A stretch of DNA of 63,598 bases from a virus, in IMG/VR virus record IMGVR_UViG_3300046511_000187, positions 1 through 63,598 of that record. The stretch is one strand, 5' to 3'. Positions 2,839 through 63,598 of the stretch are shown one piece after another. The translations under genes and the position numbers were made by a program. The notes under the pieces are model-generated. The model had not been told where the DNA came from. It was given only the letters and a program-made list of their open reading frames with translations, and made no database searches. How positions within the stretch are numbered: the stretch's first letter is position 1; each line of letters begins with the position of its first letter.

Positions 2839-5800
2839 CTACAGGCCGACCTTCTTGATGAAGGCACGGACACGGTTCATCTGCTGTTTGTACCACGCTG
2901 GCTGATCGCGGTAGTCCTGCGGGGGCAAGTACTGACGACCATGGTAGCCCGTCTCGATGGTCTTCTTCCAAGCACCACCCGGTCCGAGCAACGCGATCGC
3001 GAACTGCTTGTTCTTGTGAGCGAGGTCGAGTGCCTTGGTCTCATCCTTGACCATTACATTGAGGTCGATACTGAACTTGCCCGTGGGCTTGCCTTCAGAG
3101 TCTGCAATACGCCAGACTCCGATCGTAGGTTTGAGTCCCTTGGCTTTCAGTTCCTTGATGAGCGGTTCAACCTGCTGACGGAACTTGAGGATGCGGCCGG
3201 GATAGAGCCGGTCACGATCTGTGTTGTGCGTCAGCATCGAGACGACATTGCCTTCATGCGTCGCCGGCTCGAACGTGTCTGGATCGAACGTATGCCCTGT
3301 GTGCTCTCCGTTGCCAGAGACCTCAGTCCAACCGTTCTCTCCCTTCGCGATACCCCGTCGAACGGGCTCAAGAGCTTGGTAGAGGTTCTGCATCATCTTC
3401 AGATGACCATTGACCTGCTGCACGTATTCCTCGGGCGTGAGCCCACCGAGCTTACGCTCGACGAGATCTTCGAGGGGACGAGCGGAGCCCGTCTTCGTCG
3501 AGGCTGCACGGCCGCCGATCGCTTCCTTCTCTTGGATCGAGCCGACGCGCGCGCCTTCCCAGACGGCCGCTTGGAACTCGGCCGGGGTCATCCCATTATC
3601 GAGCGCCAACTGGCGGACCGCGTTCTCGTACAACTTGTAGTTGTTCGGCTTGAGCGCCGTCACGTCGTTCATCTTGAGCGCGCGGAGCATCCACCGGTCG
3701 AGCACGACGGCATTCGGGTCGCCCCGGAGCGCGTCGAGGAAGTTCTTGATCTTCGTGTTCTCGGGCAGTGCCTTGCCCGCCGCTGTATCCTCAAGCTGAC
3801 CGCGCATGGAATCGCCACGGAAGCCCTCGAAGGGCATTCCAGCCTTCCACTGTGCGTACGCCTTGAGAGCCATTGCAGCGCCGGACTCGGTCTGGCCGTT
3901 GGCCGACGTGACCGCGAGGAAGCGGAGGAACATGTCCGAGTCTTCCCCGAATCGCTGCTTCGCCCACGTTGCCGTCTTGTTGTACCAGCCCATGCCGTAC
4001 TTGCCTGAGTCCTTCAGGTCAAGTAGCTCTTTCAAGTTCGCGTCAGCCGTGCCCGTGTCCTTGAACATACGGACGAAGTGCTTCTGTGCCAGTGCCGAGA
4101 TCTTCTCGATGAAGGGCTTTACGACCTCGCCGTACTTGCCGACGAGGTATGACGCGAAGCTCTCGGGATCGCGAAGCTGCTTGGCGAACATACTGGCAGC
4201 CAAGTCGAGAGCCGCGTCCCCGATCATCGTCGGGTCGAAGCCCGCGTTCGCGCGGCCGAGCTTACTGTTGAGGCGTGCCCTCGCTGCTTCCGCAACCTTG
4301 TCGAGAGACGCCGCGACCTGTGCCTGATGCTGGCCGATCGGCTGGCGGATGACGTCCGCCGTTGCCATCTGGCCTTCGGGCAGCTTCGTGCTCGCGGTGA
4401 TCTCGAACCCACGGGGCGCGAGGTAGTTCTTCATCTGCTTCTCGATCGGGATCTTGCCCCCGTTCGAGTCGATCTTCGTCAGCCGCATCGTGACGGGCAC
4501 ACCGTGCTCGTCGGCCGTCGTGGTGATATGATCGAGGACCTTGCCCAGTGCGCCACGCTCGGCCTGCACGCCGCCGGGGAGCCCGAGCCGTTCGATATGC
4601 AGCGCGCCGTTCTGCTCCTTCACGACTGCGTGTTCACCCACGGACAGCTTGCCGAGGGCCTCAGCCGCCCGGTTCGCGGGCGCTTCGGGTGTGGCTGGCG
4701 AGGCAGGAGTCGCACCTGCAACCTCCGCGTTCAGAGCGCGGGGCTCCACTGTTGAGCTACTCGCCGACGGTGCAGCCGGCGCGAGAGCCTCCTCGCGCGG
4801 CGTTACGACTGGGGCCGGGACAGCAGCCGGGGCCGCCTCCACTACCTTGGCGCGCGGCTTCTTCAGCGGGGTCTCGGGGACACCGAGGACCTCGCGCACG
4901 CGCGCGTCCCGCATCGCCGGAGTCACCTCGGGCTGCGGCGGGACAGCGAGCCGCTCGCGGGGCTCGATGGCAGGCTCGGTGTTCGGAGCGATGCCGCTCG
5001 CGGGCGGGGCTTGAAGCTCATTCATCTGTGTGCGGAGACCGGTCGGCGGAAGCTGTGCTTCGCCCTGCATGACCGGACGCGGTTCGAGTGGCCGCGTCTC
5101 CATCGTCGGTGCGGACTCGGCCACTTGGCCGGGGCCCGCGAGCGCGCCGGGCGACGTCAGCGAGGGAGGCCCGCCAGTCGGCTCGGTTGGAGGCAACGCG
5201 ACAGCGCCGAAGTTCGCCGTCTCACTCTCGGCCGCTTGCGCGAGCTTGATCTTGTTTCCGATGGCGTCGATAGCCCGAAGACCAGCAGCCGTCTGGAGCG
5301 CATCAGAACCGTGCTCTGACGCGATGATGTTCTGGGCAGCGACAAACGGATCGCCTTCAAGCGGGTACTGCGTACGATCAGCCCGGAACCTTGTGGCGGT
5401 GTTCGCAATCTGATCGGACTGCACGCGGAGACGGTACGCTTCGGCACCCTTCTCGCGCTCTTCTGTGGCCTTCGCTTTCGCAGCGTAGTCTGCTTGGTTC
5501 TTCTTGAGAGCCGCCGTATTGGCTTCACTCACCTCCTCTGCCACTGCATTGGCCTTGGCCTCAGCCCGAGCGGCGTGCTCACCGGGGAAGCGGGCGATTG
5601 CACCAGCCGTCTCACCGATTAGACCGAGACCACCGCCGAGCAGAGCACCACCCTTCACACCAGTTGCGCCTTCCTCGACACCACCACGGACCATCTCGCT
5701 CGCGACTTCCGCCGGGCTAAGATTGGCTGCGCTGGCTTCAAGGGCCGCACGGGTTGCCCCTTGCACACCAAGACCGACACCACCAACGATGGCACCCGTC

Positions 5801-62892: not shown

Positions 62893-62969
62893 TGGCATGT
62901 AGCTCAGTTGGTAGATGCACCCGTCTGTTAAACGGGAGGTCGCAGGTTCGAGTCCTGCCATGCCAGCCA
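62893..62969 (+). tRNA. tRNA-Asn (GTT), CCA encoded
   Basis: The acceptor stem TGGCATG/CATGCCA is perfect. The anticodon stem CCCGT/ACGGG carries loop CTGTTAA (anticodon GTT). The T-arm is GCAGG-TTCGAGT-CCTGC. Discriminator G is followed by an encoded CCA (62967-62969). The D-arm is GCTC ... GATGC, one base longer on its 3' side than usual, giving a bulged T at 62916. It would serve the AAC codons used throughout the genome. Confidence 0.9.
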
Positions 62970-62971
62970 GC

Positions 62972-63046
62972 GTGACTGGTCGCGAAGAGTCGAGCGGGGA
63001 GGCTGTGAACCTCCCTTACCGGATGCGAGTTCCGGCAGTCACTCCA
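62972..63046 (+). tRNA. Degenerate tRNA-like gene, anticodon GTG (His), CCA encoded
   Basis: It starts two bases after the tRNA-Asn CCA. Acceptor GTGACTG/CAGTCAC is 7 perfect pairs. Anticodon stem GGAGG/CCTCC carries loop CTGTGAA (GTG). T-stem CCGGA/TCCGG is 5 perfect pairs with loop TGCGAGT (normal TTCRANY changed at position 55). D-stem is only CGC/GCG and the loop lacks GG. The discriminator is T and CCA follows (63044-63046). It has no G(-1) and no C73, the main His identity elements. Confidence 0.65.
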
Positions 63047-63055
63047 CAAACGCAA

Positions 63056-63094
63056 AAAGCCCCGTCAGTCCTGTTCAAGGACCGGCGGGGCTTT
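63056..63094. terminator. Bidirectional intrinsic terminator between the converging units
   Basis: AAAGCCCCGTC pairs with GGCGGGGCTTT and an inner GTCC/GGAC extends the stem around a 7-nt loop. Reading left, the stem is followed by TTTTTGCG; reading right, by TTTCGTGTTT. It therefore ends both the tRNA/rightward transcript and the leftward late transcript. Confidence 0.85.
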
Positions 63095-63109
63095 CGTGTT
63101 TCTACTGGG

Positions 63110-63239: not shown

Positions 63240-63598
63240 TCAGTGGTTCCCCTGTGCATTGTTCACCTTCTCGTAGGTGCGAAGACCGGCCATGCCGAGC
63301 ATCGCGAGAAGGATCGGTGAGAGTGTGGACATATCGACTACGGGTGCTACGAACGGCTTGCCGTGGGCAACCGCCACGAGGGCGATGACCATCTGCACGA
63401 ACGGACCGACGACGTATGCCATCGCCAGTCCACCACCACAGACCCAACCGACGCCCGGTCGCCAGCCGGCGATGAACGCGTTCGGGGATGCGGCCTCGAC
63501 CGCGTTGATGTTCGCCTGCTGCGCCATCACGGCGAGATCACCGCTCTGCTGCATCTCGGCGAGCTTCTGGATCGCATCGGCCTTGGCTTTCGGATCGG
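63240..63598 (-). CDS. Holin, GTA-type (C-terminal part; same gene as 1-264)
   Basis: This end carries the rest of the holin: WRPGVGWVCGGGLAMAYVVG, then FVQMVIALVAVAHGK and LSPILLAMLGMAGLRTYEKV. These provide the second and third membrane helices and a short polar tail. Bases beyond 63401 duplicate the left end of the window. At 63529 this copy has A, changing codon 46 from Ala to Val relative to the left copy. Confidence 0.85.
   Translation of the reverse strand, partial: DPKAKADAIQKLAEMQQSGDLAVMAQQANINAVEAASPNAFIAGWRPGVGWVCGGGLAMAYVVGPFVQMVIALVAVAHGKPFVAPVVDMSTLSPILLAMLGMAGLRTYEKVNNAQGNH
63402..63598. repeat. Terminal overlap, right copy
   Basis: It is identical to bases 1-197 apart from one substitution (A at 63529 against G at 128). 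It marks circular closure of the assembly. Confidence 0.95.

Follow-up and report, generated by a model that had tools for sequence, protein, structure and literature searches.

The 63,598 bases of the virus record analyzed, as a whole called the window here, carry on the plus strand at 62972-63046 a 75-nt cloverleaf, encoded CCA included, with the anticodon GUG. We consider it rather likely that this element belongs to a conserved tRNA-His(GUG) family, seen so far in phages alone and derived from ordinary phage tRNA-His, and that it is presumably co-transcribed with a neighboring tRNA-Asn, cut by RNase P and used to decode CAC and CAU, with a rebuilt elbow and an identity that does without G-1:C73. 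Fold, homology, covariation, array position, phage-only distribution in the collections scanned and gradual derivation are directly established.

The source of the window is a soil phage, which encodes terminase, portal, tail protein, DNA polymerase, holin and phage lysozyme. The first and the last 197 bases (1-197 and 63402-63598) match at 99.5%; with such overlapping ends the window probably represents the complete genome, about 63.4 kb long. The 2.2-kb tRNA-bearing end of the window has no close counterpart in 50,697 records of cultured phages; a host search via the terminase gave one 23.5% match in cultured phages and none in plasmids, and the DNA polymerase was likewise uninformative. The 9218 codons of selected window ORFs include 165 CAC and 26 CAT, i.e., CAC is regularly used.

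The cloverleaf and its neighbors

The features of the region are, by position:

62893-62969, plus strand: normal tRNA-Asn(GUU), 2 nt upstream of the tRNA-His (ARAGORN; Rfam 64.1 bits); co-transcription presumed
62971, plus strand: position -1, which is C, G-1 being absent (sequence reading)
62972-63046, plus strand: non-canonical tRNA-His(GUG), 75 nt with CCA (homologues, covariation, 96.8 bits with the R1 model described below)
62972-62978, plus strand: 5' strand of the acceptor stem, GTGACTG, forming 7 pairs with CAGTCAC at 63036-63042; 5/7 covary in the family
62979-62980, plus strand: positions 8 and 9, G and T; U8 is absent, and A8 or G8 is found across the whole non-canonical family
62981-62996, plus strand: D-arm with a 3-bp stem (CGC/GCG) and a 10-nt loop, GAAGAGTCGA; G18G19 is absent and 3/3 stem pairs covary
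62998-63014, plus strand: anticodon arm with the stem GGAGG/CCTCC, the loop CTGTGAA and the anticodon GTG at 63005-63007; 5/5 stem pairs covary
63019-63035, plus strand: T-arm with the stem CCGGA/TCCGG and the loop TGCGAGT, in which G55 replaces U55; 4/5 stem pairs covary
63036-63046, plus strand: 3' strand of the acceptor stem (63036-63042), discriminator T73 (63043) and encoded CCA (63044-63046) (sequence reading)
63055-63096, plus strand: hairpin AAAGCCCCG...CGGGGCTTT with a T-rich tail (terminator scan, 1 found versus 0.2 expected), conserved in L007/L010

The acceptor, anticodon and T stems are Watson-Crick paired at 17 of 17 positions, to which the 3-bp D-stem is added. The original prediction had taken these 17 perfect pairs and the encoded CCA to indicate a selected tRNA fold, and had pointed to a T-loop, D-loop and position 8 off consensus, to the missing G-1 and C73 and to a normal tRNA-Asn two bases away. 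Reading of the sequence confirmed the pairs and the CCA, the departures (TGCGAGT, GAAGAGTCGA, G8, C-1, T73) and the gap, which is the dinucleotide GC behind the end of tRNA-Asn at 62969; the selected fold found strong support in the covariation among relatives given below.

With a 7-bp acceptor stem, 5-bp anticodon and T stems, 7-nt loops and CCA the element has the geometry of the general tRNA cloverleaf. A scan for perfect 7+5+5 stems anchored on CCA found only two places in the window, this element and the tRNA-Asn, where 0.0067 such cloverleaves per strand are expected by chance (Markov-1 sequence). The MFE z-score of the element (-1.59) was too weak to serve as proof of the fold and was dropped in favor of covariation. 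From the elbow consensus A14, U54, C56 and A58 are present, and U8, G19 and U55 are absent. ARAGORN, run on the window, made no call at 62972-63046 and found no second His tRNA; Rfam model RF00005 did not list the element even at E ≤ 10 when a 261-nt stretch was searched. The hairpin at 63055-63096 is likely the end of the tRNA transcript. A 150-nt region upstream of the tRNA-Asn, folded in search of further tRNA-like RNA, had no excess structure (z = +0.68).

A family with covarying stems

Identical copies of the tRNA are present in two sister phages, in one of which (L009/L011) it stands behind the same tRNA-Asn; in the other (L007/L010) an identical 81-nt stretch comes after tRNA-Ile, the array being Met-Trp-Asn-Ile-His. 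Diverged versions turned up when the DNA of terminase relatives was searched, in L031/L033 (83%), L032 (81%), L091, L050 and L082; matching a loose pattern to 2.9 million viral contigs brought in L125 (a 191-kb phage), L128, L129, L130, L132 and L139. The pattern scans demanded the motif UGUGAA with its anticodon GUG, so that constant letters in the D-loop and anticodon are partly a search artefact and do not count as independent conservation. Among 30 pattern matches several, including L118-L122, L131, L133, L135-L138, L140 and L142-L143, failed the acceptor and T-stem test and were discarded as chance. L083-L086 match the family weakly and in part; L149, a match in the Streptomyces phage Bmoc, was dropped for want of a clean cloverleaf, and BLAST of the element against cultured phages returned just a 22-nt chance match.

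A single match, L145, came from one pattern scan over 84,980 prokaryote genomes; it lies in an open frame, apparently a protein-coding gene, has no cloverleaf and was rejected as a chance match. Therefore no bacterial copy of the family's D-loop/T-loop form was seen in these genomes, and the family is so far phage-only among the collections scanned.

The alignment comprises 11 distinct sequences, that of the window and 10 further types from viral contigs, three of which had 1 variable-loop base removed. Standard pairs fill 220/220 cells and both sides have changed at 17/20 pairs; the covariation score is 0.891 versus 0.259 for shuffles and at most 0.188 for slid controls. The UGUGAA of the anticodon loop is invariant and GUG with U33 is present in 11/11 types, as the pattern scans required, and the encoded CCA is kept in every type. 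D-loop column 21 and T-loop column 59 switch jointly from C-G to G-C. Because the tRNA-His of L159, which has ordinary loops, also has G and C at these columns, this contact between the two loops may be real, but independent events are few.

When the array loci were scanned for perfect stems, ARAGORN called the other tRNAs and missed the His family; the arrays overall are therefore not degenerating. The L125 record contains 22 ARAGORN tRNAs, none of them for His; the family member follows 1 nt after tRNA-Tyr, and a rough pattern revealed no ordinary second tRNA-His in this record. ARAGORN also misses a tRNA-Cys(GCA) at 3231-3307 of L125, in which U73 is combined with a D-loop of similar kind (GAAGAGGCCGA); altered D-arms of this style may extend beyond His.

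Further structures were noted in the same loci. In L050 the T-loops of a tRNA-Lys (1492-1566) and a tRNA-Gly (2762-2835) read TGCGAAT and TGCGATT, G55 thus occurring elsewhere together with ordinary D-arms. In L007 the non-canonical tRNA-His is directly followed by a Cys-like (GCA) cloverleaf with a long D-side insertion (5333-5460), which has no homologue in the other loci compared, and a strongly structured RNA (5460-5577; z = -3.5) with a 12-bp closing stem lies between the tRNA array and the terminator.

Descent and histidine identity

A covariance model, R1, was built from the non-canonical family. It scored the window at 96.8 and L160 at 81.0 bits, followed by the ordinary phage tRNA-His of L171 (74.5), L176 (70.7) and L146 (69.2); ordinary phage tRNA-His range from 74.5 down to 49.1 bits, other isotypes start at about 49 bits, and the top 16 matches are all tRNA-His (16/16). 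Two intermediates were found, L160 with a D-loop changed as in the window, a normal T-loop, U-1 and C73, and L101 with a normal D-arm and a changed T-loop. Because R1 ranks phage tRNA-His next to the family and because these intermediates exist, the family is, as judged by sequence comparison, a tRNA-His by descent, derived in gradual steps from ordinary phage tRNA-His. The annotated tRNA-His of the Gordonia phages Sixama and GodonK (L146/L148; R1 69.2 and 63.9 bits) are like that of the window in geometry, with U-1 instead of G-1, A8 and a D-loop (AAGTGGTCGA) differing from that of the window by about one deletion. Unlike the window they retain C73, G18G19 and the T-loop UUCGAGU and are therefore found by ordinary annotation.

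Bacterial His identity depends mainly on G-1 and C73, and the HisRS of Escherichia coli needed mutations to accept a G-1:U73 suppressor (PMC9976931). As a His element G-1 has been called nearly universal. The canonical bacterial tRNA-His (PMC9976931) has in common with the window GUG with U33 and A37, a 7-bp acceptor stem starting with GUG, CCA and 5/5 anticodon and T stems. The window departs from it in C-1/U73 for G-1:C73, so that neither of the two determinants is present, in G8, G55 and the absence of G18G19, and in a 3-bp D-stem with G13 and A22 facing each other.

In cultured phages 11 of 12 tRNA-His genes do not encode G-1: C73 is combined with U-1 in 10 of them and with C-1 in the remaining one, and the twelfth gene has G-1. 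The sample was picked by similarity, is no census and includes phages infecting Mycobacterium, Gordonia, Streptomyces, Vibrio, Klebsiella and Aeromonas; the annotated tRNA-His of Bmoc, which has no encoded CCA and aligns poorly, was left out of this count. Absence of G-1 is thus the phage norm within this sample. The cultured-phage tRNA-His of L146, L147, L148, L151 and L183-L189 have mostly U-1, though bacterial tRNA-His normally encodes G-1. Mycobacteriophage Nappy has U-1 in its tRNA-His; that of mycobacteria carries G-1 (PMC6582537). A word search of open-licence papers found no published account of phage tRNA-His without G-1 or of phage tRNAs with such an elbow.

The description of the element as lacking His identity was thus overstated as to G-1, the absence of which is usual in the sampled phage tRNA-His, and correct as to U73 in place of C73, the only real departure from the His rule of bacteria. 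What is unusual in the window is U73 (with C-1) and the rebuilt elbow rather than the missing G-1. Within the non-canonical family positions -1 and 73 are either C/T or T/C: U73 occurs in three sequence groups (window, L031/L032, L091), always with C-1, and C73 in five others (L050, L082, L125, L128, L129), always with U-1 (Fisher p = 0.012 for nine types, with no correction for their relatedness). All four pairings of loop type with end type occur (window and L031; L091; L050 and L128; L082, L125 and L129), and therefore at least one of the two characters has changed more than once.

Alpha-proteobacterial tRNA-His has A73. As in the window, G-1 is absent from the tRNA-His of alpha-proteobacteria and some protozoa, which implies a synthetase not needing G-1, and their HisRS does without it (PMC6471195); the elbow is ordinary there and altered in the window, which has U73. 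The allo-tRNAs (PMC7609411) resemble the window in being divergent bodies from soil data that break standard rules; they have 8/4 or 9/3 acceptor branches, whereas in the window the branch is 7/5, as is normal, and the elbow is altered. Neither a HisRS nor a Thg1-like G-1 adding enzyme was found in the phages searched, and charging would therefore fall to the host enzyme. In the Sinorhizobium phage Phosso (L152) an ORF of 196 amino acids (4096-4686) is annotated as histidyl-tRNA synthetase, far below the normal length of HisRS; it sits about 276 bases after a tRNA-His that bears G-1.

Proposed function and alternatives

Transcription, processing, histidine charging by the host synthetase and translational use we infer as follows. 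The tRNA-His would be transcribed together with the tRNA-Asn and released by host RNase P, with cleavage expected at +1 because U or C at -1 is unpaired with C or U at 73. Host HisRS would then charge it with histidine, identity resting on the anticodon and the acceptor end and not on G-1:C73, and the charged tRNA would decode CAC and CAU during infection. The elbow (D-loop/T-loop contact and position 8) would be rebuilt, the standard U8, G18G19 and U55 being no longer used. Against this proposal it can be held that U73 departs strongly from bacterial His identity, which relies on G-1 and C73 (PMC9976931), and that G55 together with the loss of G18G19 and U8 would weaken a normal elbow.

By analogy with known phage tRNAs, escape from host tRNA-attacking systems is a plausible reason for the altered elbow. 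The phage would own a substitute tRNA whose altered elbow and ends block recognition or cutting while His decoding is kept, an account that in this specific form we regard as possible but unlikely. Phages are known to make good with tRNAs of their own the loss of those that host defences cut (PMC10264068, PMC11555353). Some systems cut outside the anticodon, Cas12a3 in tRNA tails (PMC12851939) and Septu, as reported, in the variable loop of tRNA-Tyr (PMC13096335). The changes in the family cluster in the elbow and the ends while the anticodon loop is constant, and in most loci checked only the His tRNA of the array is altered in this manner. Such evasion is compatible with a functional tRNA-His and would be a reason for it, not an alternative structure. 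That the element is a real tRNA misacylated or charged with an amino acid other than histidine appears improbable: U73 without G-1 would break His identity, U73 with C-1 recurs in L031/L032 and L091, bacteria use U73 as a determinant for Gly (PMC9976931), and the tRNA-Cys of L125 has a similar D-loop; but the same body has C73 in L050, L082, L125, L128 and L129, the anticodon stays GUG, and it is implausible that a phage dependent on host ribosomes should stably recode CAC.

The original prediction had also considered a decoy for anticodon nucleases, a structured regulatory RNA and a decaying gene. A nuclease decoy would go well with an anticodon loop that stays constant, and ARAGORN and Rfam both record a poor fit to the tRNA consensus; yet a decoy needs no array context, and the CCA in every sequence type, the constant GUG loop, the gradual series leading from tRNA-His and the place as sole His tRNA in near-complete arrays, which decoding explains, make them very improbable. 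Decay would account for loops off consensus and for the ARAGORN miss. It is rejected because all 220 cells are paired in the 11 types, no pair being broken and 17 of the 20 having changed in both partners, and because the relatives, too, have the non-canonical form, its stems compensated, where decay would predict a standard tRNA-His; the identical 81 nt behind a different tRNA in L007 also argue against a pseudogene, to which we assign next to no weight. The element is a maintained and probably working tRNA.

A more far-reaching proposal, put forward tentatively, is that of a widespread, phage-only tRNA-His lineage with an alternative elbow, including a covarying D-loop/T-loop contact, and a histidylation that is independent of G-1 and tolerant of U73, possibly as an escape from nucleases of the host that recognize a standard elbow or acceptor end; phages would then break an identity rule that is almost universal. 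Standard annotation undercounts phage tRNAs, in this family always that for His, and work on phage tRNA content and codon compensation would be biased as a result. Most sampled phage tRNA-His lack G-1, and one family drops C73 and the standard elbow as well, yet is under strong selection; it enables a direct test of how much of its identity and tertiary structure a tRNA can lose and still work.
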